A DNA stretch of 64,000 nt from a virus. Shown piece after piece: positions 20,058-63,220 of this stretch (position 1 is its first letter; every line of letters starts with the position of its first letter). Position numbers and translations under genes: made by a program. The notes beneath the pieces were generated by a model, which was not told where the DNA came from, made no database searches, and saw nothing but the letters and a program-made list of their open reading frames with translations. The DNA is taken from the IMG/VR virus record IMGVR_UViG_3300045996_002560, positions 1-64,000 of that record. The stretch is one strand, 5' to 3'.

Positions 20058-20133
20058 ATCAGCGTAGCTCAATTGGCTAGAGCAGTGGTCTCCAAAACCA
20101 CCGATGAGGGTTCGAGTCCCTACGCTGGTGCCA
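20058..20133 (+). tRNA. tRNA-Trp (CCA anticodon)
   Basis: Seventy-six nucleotides fold as a complete cloverleaf. The acceptor stem is ATCAGCG/CGCTGGT, the D-stem GCTC/GAGC, the anticodon stem GTGGT/ACCAC with loop CTCCAAA giving anticodon CCA (20092-20094), and the T-loop is TTCGAGT. Discriminator G73 is the bacterial tRNA-Trp identity base, and CCA is encoded. The outermost T-stem pair is G-A, a minor defect. It marks the end of the plus-strand early block. Confidence 0.92.
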
Positions 20134-20146
20134 AACTCCCCTCTTC

Positions 20147-20362
20147 CTAGAACACCACCGCTGCGGTGATTGCCACCAATGCGGCGATCGCCGTATACAT
20201 CCACCAGTGACCAGCCGTGTAGGGGTCCACCCTACAGAACTCCACAGGAAGGTTGGTCACTGCGTGGGGTATATCCTTCCATCCCAGGCGCCCGCGGCTC
20301 TCTTCATGCCGCGTCCAAGGGTGCCGAATATCCCTGACTAACCTGTCGATATGTTCCTTCAT
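20147..20362 (-). CDS. Small protein with C-terminal membrane anchor
   Basis: Seventy-one residues with a hydrophilic N-terminal part and one hydrophobic segment at about 52-71 reaching the C-terminus. The start overlaps the tailspike stop. It is the last gene of the late minus-strand block, converging on the tRNA. A tail-anchored lysis or exclusion role is possible; nothing specific is seen. Confidence 0.62.
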   Translation of the reverse strand: MKEHIDRLVRDIRHPWTRHEESRGRLGWKDIPHAVTNLPVEFCRVDPYTAGHWWMYTAIAALVAITAAVVF

Positions 20363-22713
20363 TACTCGCGCACCAGTTGCAGCATTGCTATGACCGGCGT
20401 GCTGTCGGCTATGTTGGCGCCGCTGGCGTTGGTTGCCTTGACGGTGATGGTGTTGTCAGCCGTGACCACCGGTCGGTGGATGATCAGCCCATCGTCGGGC
20501 GCCGACAGCAGGCGCAGCTCGGCCGAGTCGACGCCTGCCTTGGCGCCGGTGATCGTCACGGTGCCGGACGCAGTGGCATCGGCGTTGACGGCGGTGAAAT
20601 CGAGGCAGGCGACGGCCTCGAACATGTGACCCCACTTCTTGAGCGCCTTGCCAGTGCTCGACGGGTCATGCAACGTCGACACCGAGACACCAAAGCTCAA
20701 GAAGAGCACGACGCCCAATGCCGCGGCAGTCGTCTCGGTATCGGTGTCGGTCGTACGATAGGAGATCGTCGTCGATGTGACGGACTGGATCACCGTTTCG
20801 CTGTCGGTATAGCCCGTGCCGTTGCAGCGAGTCTGGATACGCATGCCGACCTTGAGGCTGTGCGTGCCGATCGTCAGGGTCACCATGCCGCCCGTCTTGG
20901 CCCGATGTGTGATCGTGTAGGTGCCTGGCAGAACGGTGCCGGTCGCTTCCTTGGCGAGCGCCGAGGTGCCGGTCGTGTTGGCGACCTTGAAGGTGTGCTG
21001 ATTGATGACATGAGAGACGGTGTAGGGAGTGGCGCTCGAATAGCCCGAGTTGGTGGCGCTCGGAATGCAGAGCGGATCACCAACGCGGAAGAAATGCTTC
21101 TCCTTGGTGTAGATCGTGGCATGCGTCGTATCGCGACTGACGGCGACGATATTGAGCGCGGCCGAAGCCCAGGCCCGCACCATCTCACCTTGCGTGTTGA
21201 TCTTCTCGAAGTATACCCGACCCGAGGCGTCGGCGTCGCTGTCGCGCACCGGCACGAGACCAGAGGCGCGCACGGAGCTGGTGGTGCCGATGACGGTGGT
21301 GTCGCGCGCGTGCAGCACCTCAACAAACCAATCTTCGCAACCGCTTGGGTTGTCGATCAGCACCGCGTTCGTGGTCGTGCCCAAAACGACCGTGCCGTGA
21401 TCCGTGCCGGAAGGCAAGGTGCCGGGGCTGCTGGTGCCGCCATCGACCGCGAAGCTGAACTCGTCGTAACGGGCGGTCTCGCCGGCGAGCGTCGCCTCGT
21501 CGCTGACACTGATCGCCGTGACGGTATGGGCGCCATTATAAGCCGCTTCGGCAAAGCCGGCCACGGTCACGGTGTCACCGACCTTCAGGCCATGACCGAC
21601 GTTGTTCAATTCCTCGCTGTCGAATACATCAATTCGGGCCGTCGCGACGCCGCCAGTCTGGGCAATCTCAACGATCTTCTGTCCGCCGACAAAGCAGCTG
21701 TCGACCTGCATGTTGGTGATGCGACCTATGCCGCGGCCGCTGACGCCGACGAAGCCGCTGCGCGAGGTCAGACCGTCGAAGGTAGTGCCGCCGCCGAGCA
21801 GCGAGACCTTCTCGAAATGGACCTTCGCCGTGACTTCGAGGCAGTTGTCAAACAGGAGCGGGCGGTCCATGCACAGGGCGTGCTCGCAGTTAATCTGGAG
21901 GAAATCGCCCTGAAATGCATTTCTGACCCGTACCAGGCCCCACACACGCTGCCGCACACCGGCGCTGATGTGCCAGTTGCTGAACACGTTGCCGGTGCTG
22001 GGCGTGAGATCCATGCCATATTTGAGATGATCGTAGGCGCGGATGTTGGCGACTGTATTGCTGAAGAAGCTCGGAGTGCCGCCGGACGTATGAAAGCTGT
22101 ACATTCCACGAAAGCCGCCGATTATCAATAGATCGTCATAAATATTGAAAAAACAGCTATCTTCGCAGGTAATACATGATGCATCCGTTTCGTCCTCTTC
22201 GGAATAGGGCGCGAACTTCACTGTCAGGCCGCGAACCTCAGTGTAGCGCCCGCCCGTGCGCAGGATCGGGCCGTCGGCGTTGACCCGCTGAATGATCGAC
22301 TTGCCGCGCCCCATGCCGACGATACCGACGCGAGCATCGGTTGAACCCACGTTGCGCAGATCGATCTCGTCTTCGATCGAATAGACACCGGGGGGGATCA
22401 GGAGCGGCAACTTGGCCGCGAGCGCCTGGGCCGCAGCGGCCTGCAGCTCGCTCGTGCACTCATTGTCACCGGTGGTGTCGACCGTCGTCCAATCGAGGAT
22501 CGAGACACCCTTCTCACGGACGGCTCCCGCAATCGACCGGGCGCCTTGACCCGTGTCGGTGTCGGCGGGGAGGGTAACTGCGGCGCCAAGAGCGTCCTGA
22601 TTAACCTTCCCGCTTCCTCGTGTACGACTCTCGAAGCTGATCAGAGCGTCAGAGGGAAGGTCATCGAACTCGAGACCAGCGGTTTCTTTGTTAAGCTGCG
22701 TGAAAGTGGTCAC
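20362..22713 (-). CDS. Tailspike-like protein 1, beta-helix
   Basis: A 783-residue tail protein. Residues 1-40 (with DDLPSDALISF and RTRGSGKVN) are nearly the same as in the protein at 48666-50651 and probably form the virion anchor. From about 75 the pattern of a pectate-lyase-type right-handed beta-helix begins (TSELQAAAAQALAAKLPLLI, then VYSIEDEIDLRN and repeated short strands). The C-terminal half is rich in Thr/Ser/Val strands with VGDTVTVAGF-like and FRVGDPL repeats. Such proteins bind and often cut host polysaccharide. Start is GTG with GGAAAAC upstream, overlapping the previous stop. Confidence 0.82.
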   Translation of the reverse strand: MTTFTQLNKETAGLEFDDLPSDALISFESRTRGSGKVNQDALGAAVTLPADTDTGQGARSIAGAVREKGVSILDWTTVDTTGDNECTSELQAAAAQALAAKLPLLIPPGVYSIEDEIDLRNVGSTDARVGIVGMGRGKSIIQRVNADGPILRTGGRYTEVRGLTVKFAPYSEEDETDASCITCEDSCFFNIYDDLLIIGGFRGMYSFHTSGGTPSFFSNTVANIRAYDHLKYGMDLTPSTGNVFSNWHISAGVRQRVWGLVRVRNAFQGDFLQINCEHALCMDRPLLFDNCLEVTAKVHFEKVSLLGGGTTFDGLTSRSGFVGVSGRGIGRITNMQVDSCFVGGQKIVEIAQTGGVATARIDVFDSEELNNVGHGLKVGDTVTVAGFAEAAYNGAHTVTAISVSDEATLAGETARYDEFSFAVDGGTSSPGTLPSGTDHGTVVLGTTTNAVLIDNPSGCEDWFVEVLHARDTTVIGTTSSVRASGLVPVRDSDADASGRVYFEKINTQGEMVRAWASAALNIVAVSRDTTHATIYTKEKHFFRVGDPLCIPSATNSGYSSATPYTVSHVINQHTFKVANTTGTSALAKEATGTVLPGTYTITHRAKTGGMVTLTIGTHSLKVGMRIQTRCNGTGYTDSETVIQSVTSTTISYRTTDTDTETTAAALGVVLFLSFGVSVSTLHDPSSTGKALKKWGHMFEAVACLDFTAVNADATASGTVTITGAKAGVDSAELRLLSAPDDGLIIHRPVVTADNTITVKATNASGANIADSTPVIAMLQLVRE

Positions 22714-22991
22714 TTCGTTTCCTCTAGTATGCGCCGCACGCTGTTTAATTTATTCCGGCAATCCTCACCGGCTGCGTCCACCATAGCAAGGTGGTTCATG
22801 ACATCTGCGTCAGTGACTATCTGCGCCGACGTGGTGACCGGTCGGGCATTACACGTCAGCAGGTGCCCGCTTATCTTAGGGCTTTCCACCTGTATCCTGG
22901 TGACTATCTTCGGCTCGGGGCGCGTACAGCTGGTCAATAGCGTCACGAACAAAAGGAGCAGCAGGGCGATCTTCATTGGTTTCTCTGGCAC
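22710..22991 (-). CDS. Outer-membrane spanin lipoprotein (Rz1-like)
   Basis: Ninety-three residues. A short basic start, a hydrophobic stretch IALLLLLFVTLLTSC and a lipobox ending in Cys at about 22 predict a lipoprotein. The GTG at 22991 has GGAGG seven bases upstream and is preferred over the ATG at 22976. Its first 116 bases lie inside the spanin inner-membrane gene in another frame, the classical embedded Rz/Rz1 layout. It should disrupt the outer membrane at lysis. Confidence 0.8.
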   Translation of the reverse strand: MPEKPMKIALLLLLFVTLLTSCTRPEPKIVTRIQVESPKISGHLLTCNARPVTTSAQIVTDADVMNHLAMVDAAGEDCRNKLNSVRRILEETK

Positions 22992-23277
22992 GCTTGGTCC
23001 TCCTTGTGACCGCCGCGACTAACTCCTTCTGTCTTTCTGTTGCGTCACGAAGGCGAGTTATCTCTTCGTCCTGCTTCTTCAGGAAGCGTTGCATCGCCTC
23101 CACGGCAGTCTTGTTCGCCTCCGCTACCTCGCTGACCGTCTTGAGCCGCTCCGCCTGGAGGGTGTAGTCAGCGACCATCGAACGGATCTGGAGCTTCTGC
23201 CATCCTACTGCCACCAGAAGCAGCAGCAGGATGGCTCCGAAGAAGCCCCAACGGTTCATGAACAAGCCGGCTATCAT
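22876..23277 (-). CDS. Inner-membrane spanin (Rz-like)
   Basis: With the ATG at 23277 (ATGA overlap with the upstream stop) the protein has 133 residues. A single N-terminal membrane helix near 8-28 is followed by a long alpha-helical, coiled-coil-like periplasmic region rich in Glu, Lys and Arg. Overlap with an Rz1-like lipoprotein gene makes the spanin call solid although Rz sequences vary widely. Confidence 0.8.
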   Translation of the reverse strand: MIAGLFMNRWGFFGAILLLLLVAVGWQKLQIRSMVADYTLQAERLKTVSEVAEANKTAVEAMQRFLKKQDEEITRLRDATERQKELVAAVTRRTKRARETNEDRPAAPFVRDAIDQLYAPRAEDSHQDTGGKP

Positions 23278-26159
23278 GGCAGCCGGTACGTCTTGTCGGT
23301 GCTGCCACGTGGGGTCCAATTGTCCTTGTAACGATCAGACTCCGTCTCTAAGTACCCATAGACCGCGGTGTTCTCGTTGGAACGGTCACTTTCGTTGCCA
23401 CGCGGCCACAAGTCATGACAAAGTATATCCGTCGTCTGATTAAATCCGATTTCAAAGAAATCGAGTTCTGGTGTGTCCGCCGCGATGCTTTTAAACCACC
23501 CCCACATCCCATCAATGTACTGCGGGTAGTTCTTGCGGTCCACCTCGTCTGGCACTGTATTCTTTGGGTCGCGCTTGACGCCAGGGAACCACTCCTGAAT
23601 ACCGAACTTACAGTTAAAGCGTTTGGCGTAACCTAGATGTGACTTGGGACCATTGTTTCCGGTCGCGCCGTTATCGTTGACAGCTTCGGAGCCAATCCAG
23701 TAGGCCCAAGCTGCATCGCCGGTGCGCCCGCCGAGGCCCGCGCCCGTGCGGAAGTTCTTCTCGTGATCGTAACAGTCTGAGGTGAACCAGTCGATCGGGT
23801 TGTAGTTCCTGAGGTTGGCGCCCTCCACCGTCCAGTCAGCCGACAGAGGATGAACAGGGCAAGTAAGCCCGGGGTACGAGGACATCCAGTTGTTCATGGC
23901 GTTCCATGAAAATTCCACTCGTGGATTGTGGTTGACACCAAACCCAGTCGACGTGCGGTGTCGAATTCTTGACCCGGTGTTCAGCGTCTTGTCCATGTAG
24001 TAGGCAAGACGCTTGTACGCCTTCTTATAGTTGTTGCACTTCGCCAGAAGCTCCGCGGTCGGCGACGCCGGGGTGCCCCCGAAAGGCCAACCGGGCATGG
24101 AACGGACCGCCCAGGGGTACCCGCCCGTGTTCTCCTGCCCAAAGCAAAAAATCACCGGTGGTGCAGTAGGATGGTTGTCCATCCACGGAATGAACCAGTC
24201 GGCCATTTCGTCGATGATGTCCCGGTGGATGGCCATCCGGTTATCATCATTGTCGACCGTGATGCGATCGAACAAACCTTTTTCCTGTTCACACAACATG
24301 GCGTGAGCGTAGACACACTTGAAGCCGGCGTTCAGTGCGTCGGCGAGTAGTCCGGAACTGCTTCTCAGATTGCTCTGCGTTCTCACCCGCTCGTATTGGT
24401 CGTCCGCGGAAACACGGTCGGCGACAGGAATGTTGGGATTGGTCGCACCTTTACCCCACGCATTACCGCCGGTGTAGAGCAGGATGATGTCGGACTGACG
24501 CCCGCGGAACTCCCTGAAGCTGTTGGTCTCTCTGTTGATCGCCGGGTCCAAACCACCAAAGGTGACGCCAGAAGCCCAAGGCAGATTGCTGCGCCACGTC
24601 CGCGCGACGCCGCGGTCCGTTATCGTGAAGCTTGCCGCACCTTGCCCGGAGATGATCTCACCACCGGTCGGGCTCGACAGGGTGACGGTGACCGTGCGGG
24701 TACCATTGGTAGCCGTTCGATTGACTGTCTGAATGGTGATCTCGTTCTCAGTGTCACTCGCGGCAAAGGTCGACGTGCCTGTGATCGTCCCGGACAGATC
24801 ATTGTCCGTGTTCAGGCTGCTCACGGCGGTCCAGACGACGGAGCACGAACCGGTCAGCAAACCGGAGCGATTGATCCGGAGGGTGACTGCGCCGCCTTCA
24901 GCAACCGTCGAGGCATTCGAGGTGATGCTCATGCGCCGAACAGTGGCAGCCCCGCCTGAGTCGGTGACGGTGCAGGTTGCCGAGGCGGTCCCGATCGTGC
25001 AGTAAATTGGATCGGTAAGCGTGACGATGACGGTCTCGTTGGACTCGACTGTCTCGTCACCCTTGTAAACGAACGTGATCGTCTCGGTTGTCCGCCCGAT
25101 TGGGATGTCGACCTGACCCGTGAATACAGCGCCAGAGGCAAAGTCGGCGTCATTGCTCGTGCCGCTCTTGGTCCAGGTTGCTCGAACGAGACCGTTGCCA
25201 CCGCTCCGGGTGACAGTGAAGACGATGTTTTGAGTGCCCGACGTACCTTCAACCAATGTGGCAGGTGCCACGGAGATGGAGATGGAGTTGTTCTCCACCA
25301 CCATCGTGATCACGCCCGTATCGGTGGTCACACCGTCCGTGATCGAGTAGGTGAGCGTGACATTCCCGAGAGAAGCACCCGAGGTGTAAGTGATCTCGTT
25401 CTCGGCAGTGACAGTCGCGGTGCCTGCTGAAGGGGCTACCGTGATCGCGACGGTTATCGGCAGACTACCGCGGTAGTTGCCTGTGACGTTGTGTGTCTTC
25501 GACGTCGAAGGGGGCGTGTAGAACGTGTAGTCGAGCGCGACCACACTATCGTCCGGGGCATCGACTTCGTAGTTCAGACCGACATCCGCCTCGAACAGAC
25601 GAACGGGAATCTTGGAGAAGTTTGCGTCAGCCACGGTGGTGGCTGCATCAGTGTCGGTAACGGAATGCCCGGCGCCGTAGGTGATTTCCGAGTTGCGATC
25701 CGCACGATCTGATGAGTTAGGTGCGATGACGTTCTGGGAGGCATTGATGGTCGTGTCGGTAGCCAGCCACGGGTGCATGTCAGCGGAGCCGACATGGACA
25801 TTCATGTGGTTGCCCCCGACCTTGTTGCGCCCCGCATTCGGCCACGGCTTCCCCGTGGGGGCATCCCCGGCATTGCCCGGGAAGTTCAGGTAGTTCCTGT
25901 TCCCCTTGCTGAGGTGGATCTTGGCCTTGCCTCGGGCAGAGGTAGCAACCGGCTGGGCAGTTGCGGCAAGCTTTGCCGCCCAGTTGTTGATGATCACATG
26001 GTAGCCATCCTTGACCATGATGCCACCGATGTCGACGTTGGCGTCAGCATCATCTGGCTCGACCCACAGATTGCCATCAATGATGGCCCCATTGCCGGCG
26101 GTATCGGAAGTCTTCTCGGAACCGAACTGGTGACGCCAAATGTTCTTTGCGTTGGGCAT
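23274..26159 (-). CDS. Calx-beta/glycosidase-like tail protein, large
   Basis: A 961-residue protein. Residues 1-190 are a beta-rich region of unknown type; about 225-290 looks like a cadherin-type Ig repeat (ITYTSGASLGNVTLTYSITDG); 295-400 and 408-515 are two Calx-beta-like domains (VEGTSGTQNIVFTVTRSGG, DETVESNETVIVTL). From about 520 to the end is a TIM-barrel glycosidase-like domain. GQENTGGYPW (E676) and FGIQEWFPG (E856) occupy the acid/base and nucleophile places seen in the neighbour at 26159. It may be a GH26-like polysaccharide hydrolase on the tail. Confidence 0.68.
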   Translation of the reverse strand: MPNAKNIWRHQFGSEKTSDTAGNGAIIDGNLWVEPDDADANVDIGGIMVKDGYHVIINNWAAKLAATAQPVATSARGKAKIHLSKGNRNYLNFPGNAGDAPTGKPWPNAGRNKVGGNHMNVHVGSADMHPWLATDTTINASQNVIAPNSSDRADRNSEITYGAGHSVTDTDAATTVADANFSKIPVRLFEADVGLNYEVDAPDDSVVALDYTFYTPPSTSKTHNVTGNYRGSLPITVAITVAPSAGTATVTAENEITYTSGASLGNVTLTYSITDGVTTDTGVITMVVENNSISISVAPATLVEGTSGTQNIVFTVTRSGGNGLVRATWTKSGTSNDADFASGAVFTGQVDIPIGRTTETITFVYKGDETVESNETVIVTLTDPIYCTIGTASATCTVTDSGGAATVRRMSITSNASTVAEGGAVTLRINRSGLLTGSCSVVWTAVSSLNTDNDLSGTITGTSTFAASDTENEITIQTVNRTATNGTRTVTVTLSSPTGGEIISGQGAASFTITDRGVARTWRSNLPWASGVTFGGLDPAINRETNSFREFRGRQSDIILLYTGGNAWGKGATNPNIPVADRVSADDQYERVRTQSNLRSSSGLLADALNAGFKCVYAHAMLCEQEKGLFDRITVDNDDNRMAIHRDIIDEMADWFIPWMDNHPTAPPVIFCFGQENTGGYPWAVRSMPGWPFGGTPASPTAELLAKCNNYKKAYKRLAYYMDKTLNTGSRIRHRTSTGFGVNHNPRVEFSWNAMNNWMSSYPGLTCPVHPLSADWTVEGANLRNYNPIDWFTSDCYDHEKNFRTGAGLGGRTGDAAWAYWIGSEAVNDNGATGNNGPKSHLGYAKRFNCKFGIQEWFPGVKRDPKNTVPDEVDRKNYPQYIDGMWGWFKSIAADTPELDFFEIGFNQTTDILCHDLWPRGNESDRSNENTAVYGYLETESDRYKDNWTPRGSTDKTYRLP

Positions 26160-27685
26160 TATCGGTACACCGAAAGGTAGGCTGCGGAAGCGACCGCGTT
26201 GAACTCAGGCATCGGGTTCGCATAGATGTGATGCCACTGCTTGGTGGTACCCGCCTGGAAGTAACACTCGTAGAACAAGTGCTCCTCATACTCGTCGAAC
26301 AGGGCTTTCATTGCCACAATGAAGGGCGCCCTGTTTGACTTGTCGGTCGCAACGAGAGGCAGATTGGTGACGCCCCACTCGGCAACAGCCCACTTCTTAC
26401 CACGAGCGCGCGCGAACTTCGCGATGCCTCGAGGCCCAGTCACCATCCCGGTGGTGGTGTTGTAGTCGCCCATGAAGCCGTTGGGGTTATCGACGTAGAA
26501 GCTCCCGGTGAAGCTGTCGTAGGCGTCGACCGAATAGATGTCCGCGCTCTCCGGAGCCCAGAGGGCCAGCGGGCGGGTGATGTTGCGCAGGCAGTTGAAC
26601 TCCAGCACGGCACCCGGCAGCTCGGCACGATAGATAGCGGCGATGCGGTTCCAGCAAGCCTTGTAGGCAGCCGCCGTCTCGGGCGTGTTCGCCGTCTGCA
26701 CCGCCCCGTCCTGCCAGCTCCACGGGTAGCCAGCGTTCGCCTCCCAACCGAGACGGATCACCACCATGTTGGTGCCGAAGATCAGGGCCAGCTTCCTGGC
26801 GTTCGCCACGTGGTAGGAGTCGAAGTCACCGCGGGCGCCCTCGACATACTGCCGGGCGTTCGGCAGGCAAAGGAGGGGCACAGCGATCGTCCAGGGGTTC
26901 AGGCCCATGGCGACGGAGTCGCGCAGCAGAGTATGAACCCAGTTGCTCGCCAGCGTAGGCCAAGAGTTGATGATCGTGTCGCCCATGAAGGCGCTGTGGA
27001 TATCGGTCGGGCGTCCACGCCACGCCGCAATCGCGATCTGACCATCGCGTTGGCTGGCGGGTGTGTTGGTCTGAAGACGGAACCCGGAGCGCCAAGTCAG
27101 GCGCGATGCGAACCGATGGACAGGGGCGTCCACCACGGTTGTCATTGCCGTCTCGTTGCGCAAGGTGGCGCCGACCGGGTTGGTAAGCGTGACGGCTACA
27201 ACCTCGTCACCCTCGAGCTTGCGGTCGCCCTTCAGGGCTACCTCGATGCGGGCTTCCTTCTGCCCCTCTGACAGGGTCAGCGTCCCAGCGGGCAGAACAC
27301 CACCGAGGAAATCGTCGGCAGCCACGGTGCCGCCCACGCTCCACTCCAACATCACGCTCGGGTCCACATCACCATGGCGGGTCACAATGAACGTGACGAA
27401 CCGTGTCGTATGCTGGTCCTCCGCCACGGTCGGAGACAGGGCAGTAATCTCCAGCTCAGTCGGAGCGCGCATCGACTTCTCGAGCGCCTTCACCGAAGCC
27501 AGAGTCGCCTCCAGGGAGGTATCCTCGTCCTCGTAGTCCGCCGTGCAGTCAGCAACCAGGATGCCCAGCTCAGCCTTCACCTCGTCGACATTGAACAGCA
27601 GCATGGCCTGCCGCTCAACATTCTCTTTCTTCATGGCTTCGAGCTTGCTGATAATCTCAAGCACCTTGTCGTGCTGCACGGTCAT
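26159..27685 (-). CDS. Calx-beta plus GH26-like glycosidase
   Basis: A 508-residue protein. Residues 1-70 form a helical, coiled-coil-like start; about 75-185 is a Calx-beta-like domain (GDVDPSVMLEWSVGGT, LEGDEVVAVTLTNP); 190-508 is a TIM-barrel-like domain. IRLGWEANAGYPWSW (E315) and WAVAEWGVTN (E436) look like the acid/base and nucleophile of clan-A beta-mannanase-type enzymes (GH26). It shares domain order and catalytic pattern with the next protein in the operon, so the two are diverged paralogues. Likely cuts capsule or exopolysaccharide. Confidence 0.7.
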   Translation of the reverse strand: MTVQHDKVLEIISKLEAMKKENVERQAMLLFNVDEVKAELGILVADCTADYEDEDTSLEATLASVKALEKSMRAPTELEITALSPTVAEDQHTTRFVTFIVTRHGDVDPSVMLEWSVGGTVAADDFLGGVLPAGTLTLSEGQKEARIEVALKGDRKLEGDEVVAVTLTNPVGATLRNETAMTTVVDAPVHRFASRLTWRSGFRLQTNTPASQRDGQIAIAAWRGRPTDIHSAFMGDTIINSWPTLASNWVHTLLRDSVAMGLNPWTIAVPLLCLPNARQYVEGARGDFDSYHVANARKLALIFGTNMVVIRLGWEANAGYPWSWQDGAVQTANTPETAAAYKACWNRIAAIYRAELPGAVLEFNCLRNITRPLALWAPESADIYSVDAYDSFTGSFYVDNPNGFMGDYNTTTGMVTGPRGIAKFARARGKKWAVAEWGVTNLPLVATDKSNRAPFIVAMKALFDEYEEHLFYECYFQAGTTKQWHHIYANPMPEFNAVASAAYLSVYR

Positions 27686-47328: not shown

Positions 47329-47733
47329 TCATGCAAGTTTTACCGGTGACCGTGCGGTGCTCGGCATCCCTGTGCGTCTCGGATGGAACACCGGACATTC
47401 ACCGCGGTCTGACAGCGGGCATTGCAGCTTCTGCAACAGATCAAAGGCACCCTGAAGAGCACTCAATTCCTTCTCAACTTCCCGAAGGATCTTGGTGTTG
47501 TGGTTGACTTCACCACGAAGCGCATAGTTTTCGCCTCTCAGCTCTTCACGCTGTCTTTCCGCCATGTCGTAGATGTCGCGAACCGTCTTGTCGCCCAACG
47601 CCTCGAGGTCAATCTTGTCCTTCTTACGGGCCACCCGATAGGTGATGAGACCAGCGAAGATGCCACCGATCGTGGTGGCCAGGGTGCCAGCTAGAGCCAA
47701 CCCGCCCGGAGAAAACAGAAGTTCAATGGACAC
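47329..47733 (-). CDS. Membrane-anchored coiled-coil protein
   Basis: A 134-residue protein from the GTG at 47733 with GGGAGG six bases upstream. One membrane helix near 11-33 is followed by a long charged coiled coil (about 45-100) and a Cys-containing tail. It could pass for a spanin-like or holin-associated protein, but a spanin pair already exists at 22.7-23.3 kb. It is the last gene of a three-gene membrane cassette. Confidence 0.62.
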   Translation of the reverse strand: MSIELLFSPGGLALAGTLATTIGGIFAGLITYRVARKKDKIDLEALGDKTVRDIYDMAERQREELRGENYALRGEVNHNTKILREVEKELSALQGAFDLLQKLQCPLSDRGECPVFHPRRTGMPSTARSPVKLA

Positions 47734-48220
47734 GTCCAACCTCCCAGGAAATCAACATCAGGGAGGTCATGCTTAACGTGGCGAAGGAGCCGTATTGCCA
47801 CGGAGCCAGTGCGTCAGGAACCGCGGCGGTGGTGAACGTCAAAAAGCTCCAGAACAGAAGCGCCGTCGCCGTAGCACCGAAGCGCCAGTGACCCCCAAAG
47901 CGAAGCGACAGTAGGTGAGCAAGCGCCAGGGATATCAGAGCGGCCGCCCAGACAGGCTGAGGGAGAATGGACAGCAGCATGTCAAAAACAAGACTTGAGT
48001 TACGCTCCATCAAGCCAGGGGTCACCGCCAAGCCGAGCCCCATGGCCAGCGATATGACCCCGAGGCAACACTCGAACGCAGGGACGCAAAGAATCGCCAT
48101 CCGGCACAACCGGCACGGCCGCGGGCTGTTGCCCAGGTTCCAGACCGAAAGCAGCGGTCGGAACGTGAAGGCAATCGCCGTTCCACCAGCGAGGGACAAC
48201 AACAATACATACCAGATCAT
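47723..48220 (-). CDS. Polytopic membrane protein with Cys cluster
   Basis: A 165-residue protein with about four to five hydrophobic segments (about 2-20, 38-66, 78-105, 118-135, 145-160). Residues 34-54 contain five Cys in CRLCRMAILCVPAFECC, a candidate metal or disulfide site near the first helices. The start overlaps the stop of the ETR1-like gene by 4 bases, suggesting they act together. No known family recognised. Confidence 0.6.
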   Translation of the reverse strand: MIWYVLLLSLAGGTAIAFTFRPLLSVWNLGNSPRPCRLCRMAILCVPAFECCLGVISLAMGLGLAVTPGLMERNSSLVFDMLLSILPQPVWAAALISLALAHLLSLRFGGHWRFGATATALLFWSFLTFTTAAVPDALAPWQYGSFATLSMTSLMLISWEVGRVH

Positions 48221-48570
48221 GTGCTCTCAAACCTTGACCGAGCCCGCCAGAATGCAATAGCCGTCAAGATCGAGACCAGAGCCATGATGGTGACGATTAA
48301 CGCGAGGAGATAATATGACCAGGTGCCCACGAACATAGAGAGCACCATTGCGAAGTGTGCCAGCCCACAGGCGACCACGAATATTTGGATCAACCGTGTG
48401 CGAGAGCGGGTCACGCCCAGCTGCTTGGACGCCAACTGAGTCAGCGACATGGGAATAACCAGATAGGCGATGCCTGTCAGCACGTGGCCAATGGCCAGCA
48501 CCCAAACGAGTGCTGGATCGGCGTAGAGACACATAACGTGCGGTGCAAGATCAGCTATGTGGTTCATCAT
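48217..48570 (-). CDS. Ethylene-receptor-like (ETR1-type) membrane domain protein
   Basis: A 117-residue protein with three or four membrane helices. The N-terminal PHVMC, then LTGIAYLVIPMSL and FVVACGLAHFAM follow the pattern of the ethylene-binding domain of ETR1 and bacterial relatives (PHG-x-C, AY-x-x-IP-x-x-L, CG-x-x-H). The copper ligands Cys65 and His69 of ETR1 correspond to C68 and H72, and Tyr32 to Y36; the position of Asp25 holds His (H29). No kinase, GAF or other output domain follows. Known bacterial examples are parts of sensor kinases, so a stand-alone phage version is unusual. Assignment by eye. Confidence 0.6.
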   Translation of the reverse strand: MMNHIADLAPHVMCLYADPALVWVLAIGHVLTGIAYLVIPMSLTQLASKQLGVTRSRTRLIQIFVVACGLAHFAMVLSMFVGTWSYYLLALIVTIMALVSILTAIAFWRARSRFEST

Positions 48571-48592: not shown

Positions 48593-48649
48593 TCAATCTA
48601 AACCAAGGGTTATAATCAAACGTCTATTGAGCTGCGTGAAGGTGGTCAC
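48593..48649 (-). pseudogene. Tailspike gene fragment (5' end only)
   Basis: The sequence from about 48662 to 48625 repeats the ribosome-binding site, GTG start and first eight codons (MTTFTQLN) of the tailspike genes at 22713 and 50651, then diverges and stops after 18 codons. It lies just past the 3' end of the 48666-50651 gene. It looks like the remnant of a second tailspike cassette, lost or replaced by recombination. Confidence 0.8.
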
Positions 48650-48665
48650 TTGTTTTCCTTGAGCA

Positions 48666-50651
48666 TCAAAGCGGGGAGACACCAACCACGCCGGCCGAGA
48701 ACGTCACGGTGGCGCCGAGCCGGTTGACGAACATGACGGTGCCGGCATTGGTCGTGCTGACCAGGAACTCGCCGGCCGAGCCGCTGGCGCTGCTGATCGT
48801 GCCGGTGAGCAGGTTGAAGTCCGCATGCTCCGAGATTGCCCCGATGGACGGCGTGCCCACCGTCTTGCAGGCAACAACCGCCTGCCGGATTGTCCCGGCA
48901 TGCACGGCCACCAGCAAAGTGAAGTAGTCGACCGGAGGGCGGAAGATCACCGTGGCGTTGTTGGCGACCGATCGAGTGATGTAGGTGTTGCTTTCGATCA
49001 GCCTGCCATTGCTCTGACAGCCGATCTGGAAACGGGTCGAGCGCGCGACGTTCTCCAGCGGCTCGACATGTCCGCTCGGCCAAATGGTGAAGTCTTCGAG
49101 GAAGTCGGTGCCGTTGTGTGCCGTGAACTCAACTGCGTACTTGCCATAGGCGACCGACTGGCCACTGTCGGCGCGAACGACATAGCCGGTGATACCCGTG
49201 CCGGCGACTAGGCAGCTTGCCCGGATCTTGAGTGGGCCGTGCATGTGGTTATGCCGGCTGGGCGAGGCGTTGGTGTTGTAGCCGCCGTAGAACTCGTGAT
49301 TGACCCAATGCCGCAGCTCGTACATGTCGGCATTGATCTTCAGATCGCAGAAGCGGGCCGTGCCGCGCCAGACATCATGTCGGCCTGTCGAATTGCGCAC
49401 GCGGACATTGCCGACCACGCCATAGGCGGCATTCGAGCAGATCGGCGCGAAGCCGTCCGTGACCGTTGTTGGCTTGCCGCAATCGATCAGATTGACATTG
49501 CTCAGCGAGATTTCGGAAACGGTGCCCTCGGCTACCGGATCGGCCGAGAACTCACCCCAGAGCAGCAGACCAGCCCACTCCGAGCCTTGCACCACCACGT
49601 TGGAGATCAGGCAGCCATTGGTGTAGGCGTCGTTGCTGGTGCCGCCCTCATAGGTGATGCCAATATCGGCATTCTCGATGAACAGCCCATCAACGATGTT
49701 GCGCCGCGGGCCGCTCTGGAGCGAGACGCCCTTGCCGCCGCCGCGACCGATGTCCGAGACGCTCGACAGCAGCGCCGCGAGATGCGCGCCACCGTGTCGG
49801 ACATTGCAGATCTTCAGCCCGCCGCCGATGAACAGGCGATAGCCGGCGCCGCCAAGATCGGAGCGACCCGAGGCGCCGATCGCGTTGCAGTTGCCGATGA
49901 AGTTGGCGTCCAGCGTGCCATGGCCGAACACGGCGACATCGACATCGGAGCGGATGCGGACCAGTCCGCCCTCGTCATCGTCGTTCGCCGCGATCAGGTT
50001 GCCCTCGACCTGCAAGGACACGTAGTCCTCCAGGTCGATCTGCACGTCGGCCAGGAGCGTGAACCCGGCGGGCAGCAACAGGAGCTGCTTCTCTTGCCGC
50101 GCCGTGGCGCGCGCCGTTGCCCAGTCGATCATGTCCTGGATGGCACCGCTGGCGCAAGGGCCAACCAGCACATCACCAGCCGTGACCGTGGTGAAGGCAG
50201 CGGCACTCAACTCGACCGTCGTGGCGTTAGTGACGCTAGCGATCGTCGCCGCATGCGTGGTGGCGCCACCGACGCTGAATGTGAAGCTGCGCCCCGCCCC
50301 GGCGATCGTCACCCGCTTGCCGACATCAGCCGACGTGAACGAGGCGCCCGTGACGACAAGCGTCGCATCGGCAGCCGTGATCGCACCCGCCGCCGCGAAC
50401 TTTTGAACGGCGGCCAGCTCCTCGTAATCGAACGGGGTCACCGCGTAGTCGGTGAGCTTGTCGGCCAAGGTGCGAGCACGGGGACGCCCCAAGGCTTCAT
50501 CAGCCGCAAGAGTTAACCCCCCGCCCAGCGTCTCCCGATTAACCTTCCCACTACCACGGGTGCGGCTATCGAAGCTGATCAGAGCGTCAGAGGGCAGATC
50601 ATCGTATTCGAGACCGGCGGTTTCTCTGTTGAGCTGAACGAAGGTGGTCAC
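48666..50651 (-). CDS. Tailspike-like protein 2, beta-helix
   Basis: A 661-residue protein. Residues 1-40 match the anchor of tailspike 1 (DDLPSDALISFDSRTRGSGK). About 75-150 is a small beta domain (GAITAADATLVVTGASFTSADVGK). A right-handed beta-helix with a pectate-lyase-like pattern follows (SGAIQDMIDWATARATARQE; VDGLFIENADIGITYEGG). The C-terminal 100 residues form a compact strand-rich trimer-like end. Expected role is binding or degrading host surface glycan. GTG start with GGAAAACAA upstream. Confidence 0.82.
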   Translation of the reverse strand: MTTFVQLNRETAGLEYDDLPSDALISFDSRTRGSGKVNRETLGGGLTLAADEALGRPRARTLADKLTDYAVTPFDYEELAAVQKFAAAGAITAADATLVVTGASFTSADVGKRVTIAGAGRSFTFSVGGATTHAATIASVTNATTVELSAAAFTTVTAGDVLVGPCASGAIQDMIDWATARATARQEKQLLLLPAGFTLLADVQIDLEDYVSLQVEGNLIAANDDDEGGLVRIRSDVDVAVFGHGTLDANFIGNCNAIGASGRSDLGGAGYRLFIGGGLKICNVRHGGAHLAALLSSVSDIGRGGGKGVSLQSGPRRNIVDGLFIENADIGITYEGGTSNDAYTNGCLISNVVVQGSEWAGLLLWGEFSADPVAEGTVSEISLSNVNLIDCGKPTTVTDGFAPICSNAAYGVVGNVRVRNSTGRHDVWRGTARFCDLKINADMYELRHWVNHEFYGGYNTNASPSRHNHMHGPLKIRASCLVAGTGITGYVVRADSGQSVAYGKYAVEFTAHNGTDFLEDFTIWPSGHVEPLENVARSTRFQIGCQSNGRLIESNTYITRSVANNATVIFRPPVDYFTLLVAVHAGTIRQAVVACKTVGTPSIGAISEHADFNLLTGTISSASGSAGEFLVSTTNAGTVMFVNRLGATVTFSAGVVGVSPL

Positions 50652-50665
50652 TTGTTTTCCTCTCG

Positions 50666-52648
50666 TTAAGCCGCCAGGGCGCCGGTCGATTTGAACACAG
50701 GCGGGCTCCAGCTGACCGCCAACCCCGACCCGCTGGCCGTGGTGGCAACGGCAAGGGTGACGGTGCTGCCCGAGATCGCCACGATTTTGCGCGCGGTCGC
50801 GTCGCCGCTAATCAGAAGGTATTGGCCCTTGCGCAGCAGAGTCGTGCTGCTGACCGATGTCAGGCTGGTGCTGGCCGCGGCTGTGGCTGTGATCGCCAGC
50901 GTGCCGACCGTGCCGGGCTCCGTGCAGATCGACTTCCAGTTCGATCCAGCGCTGGGCTCGGCCAGCTGGATCTCCTCGCCGCGCTCAAAGCTCAGCGCGG
51001 TTGCGGTCGGCGTCAAGGAAGACACGAGCCCCTTGGTCGAGGCGCCGATATTAATGTTCTTGGTGTTGGCGCTGTTCGAGCTGAAATACTGCGGTCCCAC
51101 AACTGTCCGCGTACCAGCCTCATTGAGGCCATAGCGATGCCGGCGCGAGCCGCTGTCCGTGCCGGAGAAGAAATTGCCGACGATGATATTCTCGACACCG
51201 GTGTTGCGAATGCCGTCATAGGTCGCGACACTGTCGCCAGAGTTCTGGCCGATCAGGTTGCCGGTCACGATGTTGCGCAAGCTGGCGGTGGCCAAGTCGA
51301 TACCGTCGCGCTCCATGCCGGTGATGTTGTTGCCTTGGATCAGGCAGTTCGCGCACTCGACATAGATGCCCTTGCCGTTGGTGTCCTGGTCGAACCCAGT
51401 GATCGTGTTGTTCTGGCAGGAGCCGCCGCTGTCCTCGCCCGATGCCGCGGCCAGGAGATTGATCACCCCCATGTACGAGTCGGCCGAGTGCCCCCCCTCG
51501 CAATTGTAGATGTTGTTCTCGCTGATACGGCTGCGCTTAGTGGTGCCAACGTAGAACCTGACGACCTGATCGGCCTGGTTCTGCTGCACCTGATGACCAT
51601 AGTCGTAGGTGCCGCTATCCGTGCCGGGGTCGATCCAGATGCACGAGGCGATGCTGTCCTCTGACTTGATCGAATAGGTGGTCGTCGCATCCGGCGTGAC
51701 CGTCCAGGCATCCTTGACCGTCGCTACCTTGGTCGTCGCGTTGTTCGCGGTGATGACACCCACCTGACCCGAACCAGTTCCGCCGGTCAGCGTGATGATC
51801 CGGCCCTTGTAGAGGTCCGTCGTGCCAGCGTTGTCTGAAGCCAAAGTGATCGTGCTGGCAGCACCAGCTTGTGCGGTGCCAGTGACCGCCGTCACGTGCA
51901 GGCCGCCGCCGGAGCTGTGGAAGCGGTTGCTGTAGATCCGCTCGCCGCGCTGCGTGTCAGAATTGCCAGCGTTCGCGGAGGTGGCCGCGGGCTCGACATA
52001 GACACCCTGCACGCACCCCGCATGGATGTTCCACGAGTATTCCCAATTGCGGGCGCGGACATCCAAGGAGCGATAGAGCCCGAAAAACGCGCAGCGGCTG
52101 ATCCAGCCGTCCCAGTCGGCGTTGTCGTTTGTGCGGCGGATCTTGACGCCGATGCAGGTGCCACCTTGGCCAGCGTTGAAGATGTCGCCGTCGCCGTAGA
52201 GCTGCATGCCCCAGAGTGAGAAGTTCTTGTACTCGGAAAAGATCAGGTTTTTGCCGGCTTCGACGCAACGTAGCTGTGGCAGCCGGAACCCCTGCTCACC
52301 AATCAAGGTGATGTCGGCGCGCGGGATAACGAGGCAGTTGCCGTCATTGTCGTCATCTGAGATCGAATAGAAATACTTCGGCCAGGAAACGAGGTTGTTG
52401 GCGGCTGGCGGCGGAAAGTACAGCGAGCCATATTGTGGAACCTGATCGAGTGCCGCCTGAATGCCAGCTGTGCTGTCGTTTGCGCCGGTCTCGTCAACAT
52501 CGAAGTCGCGGATATCGACCCGCATCCCGCCGGCCGATATCTTGTCCAAGATGGATCGAGAGATCTGCCCCGTAGCCGCATCGGCAGAGATCGACAGCGC
52601 CGTTGAGCTTAAATCAACCGGTGAGGGGAAGGAGATACGCTTGCCCAT
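50666..52648 (-). CDS. Tailspike-like protein 3, beta-helix
   Basis: A 660-residue protein with its own N-terminus (MGKRISFPSPVDLSSTALS), not the shared anchor. A beta-helix begins with VDETGANDSTAGIQAALDQV near 50-70, the typical start of pectate-lyase-like depolymerases, and contains short repeats like TGNLIGQNSGDSVATYDGI. A loop with TLTGGTGSGQVGVITANN suggests an inserted beta domain. A site at the C-terminus (TSVSSTTLLRKGQYLLISG) is a further beta fold. It may be attached to the virion through the small protein at 52648-52968. Confidence 0.8.
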   Translation of the reverse strand: MGKRISFPSPVDLSSTALSISADAATGQISRSILDKISAGGMRVDIRDFDVDETGANDSTAGIQAALDQVPQYGSLYFPPPAANNLVSWPKYFYSISDDDNDGNCLVIPRADITLIGEQGFRLPQLRCVEAGKNLIFSEYKNFSLWGMQLYGDGDIFNAGQGGTCIGVKIRRTNDNADWDGWISRCAFFGLYRSLDVRARNWEYSWNIHAGCVQGVYVEPAATSANAGNSDTQRGERIYSNRFHSSGGGLHVTAVTGTAQAGAASTITLASDNAGTTDLYKGRIITLTGGTGSGQVGVITANNATTKVATVKDAWTVTPDATTTYSIKSEDSIASCIWIDPGTDSGTYDYGHQVQQNQADQVVRFYVGTTKRSRISENNIYNCEGGHSADSYMGVINLLAAASGEDSGGSCQNNTITGFDQDTNGKGIYVECANCLIQGNNITGMERDGIDLATASLRNIVTGNLIGQNSGDSVATYDGIRNTGVENIIVGNFFSGTDSGSRRHRYGLNEAGTRTVVGPQYFSSNSANTKNINIGASTKGLVSSLTPTATALSFERGEEIQLAEPSAGSNWKSICTEPGTVGTLAITATAAASTSLTSVSSTTLLRKGQYLLISGDATARKIVAISGSTVTLAVATTASGSGLAVSWSPPVFKSTGALAA

Positions 52649-52968
52649 TACTTGCCCCAGATCACGGTCAGGTCGGGGCTGGTGGCACCGGTCAGGCTCA
52701 GAGCAATGGCGCTGTAGGAGAGAATATCCACGGAGTAGACACGATCCACGTCGAGATCGTCAGCACCATTGATGGTGATCCAGTGGGCATCCGTGGCCAG
52801 AACGGGGGTCTCTTCGTAGCTCACCTGTAGGGCGATGGTGCCGCTGCCCGCCGTGCCCTTAATAGCCACGTCGAAACTGTCACGCACCGAAGGCTTCGCA
52901 TTGGAGCGAAGAAGGACGCGACCATTGTCCTCCAGGGTGGATTCATTGAAATTGGTGGAGGTGGCCAT
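52648..52968 (-). CDS. Small virion-associated beta protein
   Basis: A 106-residue beta-rich protein (GTIALQVSYEETPVLA, YSVDILSYSAIALSLTG) between portal and tailspike 3 genes, overlapping the latter by one base. It resembles small phage proteins that adapt or decorate the head or tail. Function is inferred from place alone. Confidence 0.62.
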   Translation of the reverse strand: MATSTNFNESTLEDNGRVLLRSNAKPSVRDSFDVAIKGTAGSGTIALQVSYEETPVLATDAHWITINGADDLDVDRVYSVDILSYSAIALSLTGATSPDLTVIWGK

Positions 52969-61624: not shown

Positions 61625-61807
61625 ATGTCAGACCCGCAGTTGTGGCAACGGAGCGAGCATCCGTTGCATGTGAGCAGCATCCAGCGAAAGGAGGCATGGC
61701 AAGAGGAAATTCGAAAGCTGACCGTCAATTCGCTTGCAACGGCACAACGTCGGGCCGAGCATAAGCGTCGTGGTGGTCGCACTCTCTATCCAACCATGGG
61801 AAGTTGA
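61625..61807 (+). CDS. Small basic protein, 60 aa
   Basis: ATG with GGAG six bases upstream. Contains SIQRKEAWQEEIRKLTVNSLA and a basic tail AEHKRRGGR. Possibly nucleic-acid binding; no family. Confidence 0.55.
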   Translation: MSDPQLWQRSEHPLHVSSIQRKEAWQEEIRKLTVNSLATAQRRAEHKRRGGRTLYPTMGS

Positions 61808-61808
61808 A

Positions 61809-61940
61809 ATGACCAACAGGCAAATCGTTACCTGGTCGATTGTGGCCAGTGCATTTATGGCTCTATCGTATCTCGCAGCCTTTCTGTCATTCGTGGCATT
61901 GGTCACATGGGTGGTCAAGCGCGTCTGGCTAGGAGTATGA
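61809..61940 (+). CDS. Small membrane protein, duplicate A
   Basis: Forty-three residues, a single hydrophobic helix, ending VVKRVWLGV. It is a tandem duplicate of the next gene, which ends VVKLVWLGV, and both follow the same 5' sequence ACCATGGGAAGTTGAAATG. Confidence 0.6.
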   Translation: MTNRQIVTWSIVASAFMALSYLAAFLSFVALVTWVVKRVWLGV

Positions 61941-61956
61941 ACATGCCTATCAAACC
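61926..61956 (+). repeat. 31-bp direct repeat, copy 1
   Basis: A 31-base sequence starting TGGCTAGGAGTATG, identical to 62114-62144. It spans the end of one small membrane gene, the ribosome-binding site AGGAG and the start of the next. Confidence 0.95.
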
Positions 61957-62128
61957 ATGGGAAGTTGAAATGCGCCTTCCAAGACTAGGTTCCAAGTCCG
62001 TCCTAGCCCTGTATTTATTGGGGGCTGTGAGTATCACTCTAGCCTACCTCGCAACCATTCTGTCAATCGTGGCCTTGATCGCATGGGTGATCGCACGGGT
62101 GGTCAAGCTCGTTTGGCTAGGAGTATGA
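61937..62128 (+). CDS. Small membrane protein, duplicate B
   Basis: Sixty-three residues from the ATG after AGGAG; a second in-frame ATG at 61970 aligns with the start of duplicate A. One or two hydrophobic helices (about 24-58). LAYLATILSIVALIAWV parallels LSYLAAFLSFVALVTWV in duplicate A. Confidence 0.6.
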   Translation: MNMPIKPWEVEMRLPRLGSKSVLALYLLGAVSITLAYLATILSIVALIAWVIARVVKLVWLGV

Positions 62129-62144
62129 ACATGCCTATCAAACC
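62114..62144 (+). repeat. 31-bp direct repeat, copy 2
   Basis: Identical to 61926-61956. Together they mark the ends of the duplicated unit. Confidence 0.95.
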
Positions 62145-63144: not shown

Positions 63145-63220
63145 ATCCCCATCGTCTACAGGACAGGACGCCTCCCCTCTCGGGGTGGAAACGTTGGTTC
63201 GAATCCAGCTGGGGATGCCA
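63145..63220 (+). tRNA. tRNA-Glu-like gene with 8-nt anticodon loop
   Basis: The acceptor stem ATCCCCA/TGGGGAT, G73 and encoded CCA, D-arm GTCT/GGAC and T-arm GTTGG/CCAGC with loop TTCGAAT are all intact and resemble E. coli tRNA-Glu. The anticodon stem CCTCC/GGTGG has a central T-T mismatch and the loop CCTCTCGG is 8 nt, containing CTC. It may be a functional Glu tRNA with odd decoding, a frameshift suppressor, or a decaying gene. Confidence 0.7.

Follow-up and report, generated by a model that had tools for sequence, protein, structure and literature searches.

Modularity and truncation of spike genes are already known in phages, and published parallels exist. Klebsiella KP32-like phages carry a second spike with a conserved N-terminal peptide of about 29 aa, and in phage KpV767 the second spike is cut to 69 aa, peptide included (PMC6872550). 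In Ackermannviridae, the genes of the tsp1-4 clusters (CBA120, S117) have conserved 5' ends, and experiments showed that tsp genes undergo recombination, deletion, and truncation (PMC11414711). Here we analyzed three spike-like genes (TS1, TS2, and TS3) and a short gene fragment within a window of 64 kb out of a 65.8-kb IMG/VR virus record. TS2 and TS3 share a 5' segment, the anchor, the very start of which recurs in the fragment. We consider it probable that TS2 and TS3 are paralogues with a constrained docking segment and that the fragment is a truncated third tandem spike gene.

PHROGs matches identified the terminase, portal, scaffold-like, and major capsid genes of the window; "scaffold" here denotes a phrog_37797-type gene of putative role between the portal and capsid genes. 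The nearest described relatives are Achromobacter phages JWF and 2-1, Caulobacter phage Seuss, and Xylophilus phage Lumi, with which the portal protein is 51-53% identical. The JWF/Seuss/Lumi-like siphoviruses of Achromobacter, Caulobacter, and Xylophilus have the same core order as the window (terminase-portal-scaffold-major capsid), but, unlike the window, they contain neither spike genes nor the anchor, and their portal and scaffold genes adjoin or nearly so (the gap in Seuss is 705 bp). Since better-assembled relatives are mostly 78-85 kb, the 65.8-kb record is probably incomplete. Two tandem repeats were also seen, one in the window at 61786-62144 (about 100 bp x2, 79% identity) and one at the record end outside the window at 64420-65103 (about 340 bp x2, 68% identity), as were two tRNA genes, a tRNA-Trp at 20058-20133 (plus strand), lying between the early (plus) and late (minus) gene blocks and adjoining the end of TS3, and a tRNA-Glu at 63145.

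All three spike-like genes are located on the minus strand. TS1 (50666-52648; 660 aa) is directly upstream of TS2 (48666-50651; 661 aa), and TS3 (20362-22713; 783 aa) occupies the distal end of the late gene block, past the spanin genes, its start codon overlapping the end of the spanin gene at 22710-22991. In TS2, residues 1-42 form the anchor and residues about 43-76 the neck, followed by the body. The anchor with its ribosome-binding site (about -13 to +126) spans 50526-50664 in TS2 and 22588-22726 in TS3, both on the minus strand; TS1 has no anchor, and its first 16 residues differ from the TS2/TS3 N-terminus. The neck of TS3 (residues 45-116) nevertheless resembles TS1 residues 17-99 (E 1.2e-4); thus, necks occur behind different N-termini. 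Modular spikes that dock through an N-terminal segment are organized in this way. The TS2 and TS3 bodies had no sequence match in PHROGs, Pfam, or PDB, and structure prediction returned unusable models (pLDDT 32 and 34, respectively). Their putative identity as spikes comes from the sequence pattern, together with a sub-threshold Beta_helix match (PF13229, E 0.0011) to TS1. Searches for relatives of the TS1-TS3 bodies in phages returned nothing beyond one chance-level match, and IMG/VR yielded no relatives of the TS2 and TS3 bodies. No common 3' ends were detected among TS1-TS3, except for the downstream anchor itself.

Self-comparison of the 65.8-kb record aligned TS3 (22584-22728) with TS2 (50522-50666) over 145 bp at 82% identity (E 7e-35). 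Per 15-base block, identity was 11-15 of 15 from -15 to +119, fell to 8/15 from +120 to +149, and was near background past about +165. At the protein level, TS2 and TS3 were alike over residues 1-76 only (60% identical, E 1e-22), most strongly over residues 1-42, with 75% identity across the first 53 residues and no protein match past residue 76. The original prediction had described a nearly identical 5' block followed by differing spike bodies: the shared block and the divergence behind it, with the protein match ending at residue 76, were both borne out, whereas near-identity was not, the long block being only 82-83% identical. Substitutions in the 38 best-conserved codons of the anchor were mostly silent (pS 0.47, pN 0.06, dN/dS 0.083), with about half of the synonymous sites differing, and all estimates fell within dN/dS 0.08-0.12 and pS 0.47-0.56. 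Because about half of the synonymous sites differ yet few amino acids do, the anchor is a segment conserved at the protein level, an old duplicate rather than a stretch of DNA exchanged in recent times. The anchor peptide probably attaches the spike to the virion; such docking would accord with known spike architecture (PMC6872550, PMC10408124). A docking partner such as a T4gp10-like domain was not detected by Pfam/PHROGs in the genes at 23274-26159 or 26159-27685, which is a weak test.

The same data bear on the view that the anchor serves as a site of homologous recombination through which whole bodies are swapped, the fragment being the scar of one such event. This would explain why genes about 28 kb apart have a common anchor and unrelated bodies; conserved motifs around the receptor-binding parts of spikes have been proposed as recombination sites elsewhere (PMC10408124), and recombination between tsp4 and tsp5 has been observed (PMC11414711). 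The difference at about half of the anchor synonymous sites, however, argues against any recent exchange or conversion involving the two copies, the searches described below turned up neither a relative with this anchor nor another body behind it, and a simple swap leaves no additional anchor. We therefore regard exchange at the anchor as unlikely, and the original proposal of a DNA recombination anchor finds no support in a pS of about 0.47 and a dN/dS of about 0.08, nor do recent body swaps there. Of the broader idea that body swapping leaves scars, what holds is that the bare third anchor looks like a scar; a crossover at a single anchor does not add an anchor.

Searches covering about 50,700 phage records and 2.9 million viral contigs, with INPHARED, PLSDB, and IMG/VR among the sources, did not find the anchor; those of IMG/VR used exact peptide patterns that would miss diverged anchors. 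It was likewise absent from 80 related records and from 397 genomes belonging to the order of Mesorhizobium. One anchor match at E 0.005 was rejected as chance, as it falls among ordinary cellular protein genes (permease, deaminase-like). Ten near-complete relatives showed no shared 5' ends, their repeats being mostly internal or collagen-like. The fragment itself was present in no relative searched; thus, none showed it as a conserved small gene.

The fragment (48593-48649, minus strand) is an 18-aa frame consisting of GTG and 9 conserved codons (48623-48649, GTG counted), 9 unrelated codons, and TGA (48593-48595); it reads VTTFTQLNR, then RLIITLGLD. It is preceded by a ribosome-binding region (48650-48662, minus strand; CAAGGAAAACAA) homologous to those of TS2 and TS3, with a duplex energy of -5.4 kcal/mol compared with -6.0 for TS2 and TS3. 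Self-comparison and pattern search confirmed three anchor copies on the minus strand at the expected places, and aligning the three stretches, a check suggested beforehand, confirmed their homology, while the companion check in relatives revealed none with the same anchor. The unrelated sequence and stop after the conserved codons were also as described, except that the alignment gives 9 codons, GTG counted, instead of eight. Within the record, 48623-48659 matched TS2 over 37 bp at 89% (E 8e-9 or 4e-6 in two comparisons). Past codon 9, homology was not significant (shuffle p 0.17 to 0.8), and a candidate resumption after a small insertion (ITLGLD ~ ETAGLE) was rejected for the same lack of significance. 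A 28-base pattern allowing up to 3 mismatches occurred at exactly three sites in the window and at none in 100 shuffles, and the best unrelated stretch of the window reached 26/40 against the 40-base anchor start; chance is excluded as the source of the three starts.

Over these 40 bases, identity was 33/40 between the fragment and TS2, 32/40 between the fragment and TS3, and 31/40 between TS2 and TS3. Because the fragment is about as far from either gene as the two are from each other, it represents a separate third line rather than a recent duplicate of TS2 or TS3. These distances also speak to the concern that the fragment is a misassembly artefact at the repeated anchor, which might be raised since the metagenomic record is a single 65.8-kb contig, shorter than its 78-85-kb relatives. 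The fragment differs from TS2 at 7/40 and from TS3 at 8/40 bases. Such a third sequence cannot be explained by misplacement of a read, and we give the artefact hardly any credence.

A truncated third spike gene is the most likely identity of the fragment. TS2 and TS3 would be paralogous spikes with a common N-terminal segment of about 42 residues and a weaker neck to about 76; constraint on the protein sequence keeps the N-terminal segment alike, and the distal bodies are unrelated. TS1 and TS2 would have belonged to a former tandem array, TS1-TS2-TSx, in which TSx was a third anchor-bearing spike. The body of TSx may have been lost by deletion, or replaced on arrival of the downstream membrane-protein genes, with the junction just past codon 9. 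A truncated tandem gene is preferred because a body swap at one anchor adds no anchor, whereas a third gene in tandem that later suffered a deletion would leave one behind. The spacing is as expected of a tandem array, since 14 nt separate the TAA of TS1 from the TS2 start and a similar 16 nt separate the TGA of TS2 from the fragment start. Published N-terminal reductions (69 aa in KpV767) and post-recombination changes make truncation of TSx an ordinary event. The sequence downstream of the fragment showed no trace of a third body. No relative with an intact third gene or the same anchor was found, so the ancestral state was not seen; the former third body and its deletion are what the array would imply.

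The fragment might instead be a functional leader, with its ribosome-binding site, GTG, and first codons retained for loading ribosomes that then re-initiate at the 117-aa membrane gene, the ATG of which (48570) lies 22 nt after the fragment stop. Its ribosome-binding site is strong (-5.4 kcal/mol) and that of the next gene weak (-1.5 kcal/mol), and the homology ends sharply past codon 9. Similarly weak sites, however, precede about one in four late genes in the window, and the region gave no RNA structure signal (z -0.15); we consider a leader quite improbable. No convincing promoter or terminator was detected at the fragment. Still more doubtful is the suggestion that the bare anchor start is under selection, either as a translated leader serving the membrane genes downstream or as a landing site where new spike bodies are captured; if this were true, the spike locus would hold a reserved empty slot.

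TS1, TS2, and the fragment belong to an insertion at 47.3-53.0 kb between the portal and scaffold genes. Its other genes, all on the minus strand, encode a 106-aa small protein (52648-52968; the first gene of the insertion), the 117-aa ETR1_N-like membrane protein (48217-48570), a 165-aa membrane protein (47723-48220), and a 136-aa TM and coiled-coil-like protein (47329-47739). The portal and scaffold genes, both present in 87 related loci, were ≤202 bp apart in 55 of them, 0.4-0.7 kb apart in 8, and 1.4-6 kb apart in 24. Of ten large insertions whose proteins were scanned, seven yielded matches to families of carbohydrate esterases (SASA), GDSL lipases, collagen repeats, tail fibres, or tail spikes, and the other three yielded none. 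The portal-scaffold interval is thus a variable slot in the JWF/Seuss-like clade, repeatedly filled by surface-recognition genes, and given its occupancy in relatives, the 47.3-53.0 kb insertion is one filling of it. In JWF/Seuss-like siphoviruses, surface-recognition genes are gained and lost at this slot, which makes it worth examining in sequence-based predictions of host range. One related locus (L018, 12118-15985) offered a second case in which adhesin parts are duplicated: adjacent tail-fibre-like slot genes have in common a segment (about 40%) and, at the N-terminus, a short FPxxPxVGQxF motif.

The 117-aa membrane protein was peculiar in its own right. It is a stand-alone match to ETR1_N (PF25487, E 3.8e-12), an ethylene-receptor-like sensor domain, and contains a Cys-x3-His (CGLAH) motif; it had no relative in INPHARED or IMG/VR. 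Of 297 genomes sampled from the order of Mesorhizobium, 17 contained ETR1_N, always in a longer open frame of 419-721 aa, a size typical of sensor kinases. It is unusual for the domain to stand alone among the late genes of a phage.

Comparison with the known multi-spike systems revealed common features as well as differences. KP32-like phages resemble TS2/TS3 in having several spikes with a short common N-terminal segment and differing bodies; however, they are podoviruses with a peptide of their own that was compared between phages, whereas the window allows genes to be compared within one genome. As in that class, TS2 and TS3 share an N-terminal segment, diverge behind it, and are conserved there at the protein level. 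In KpV767, as probably in the window, one spike gene is reduced to its N-terminal part, the start being kept and the body lost within the spike locus. The KpV767 remnant of 69 aa retains the peptide, whereas the 18 codons of the fragment (9 conserved) have lost most of the segment and keep only about a fifth of it. The tsp genes of Ackermannviridae, for which loss of spike bodies is documented, combine alike 5' ends with unlike bodies, as do TS2 and TS3; they have XD/TD domains and form a cluster of four genes, in contrast to the 42-residue segment of the window, a siphovirus in which the two genes with the anchor are separated by about 28 kb and belong to different late modules. Within a single genome, the window clearly illustrates how phages maintain several spikes that share an attachment segment and how genes of this kind are lost, and it adds another example of familiar phage evolution.
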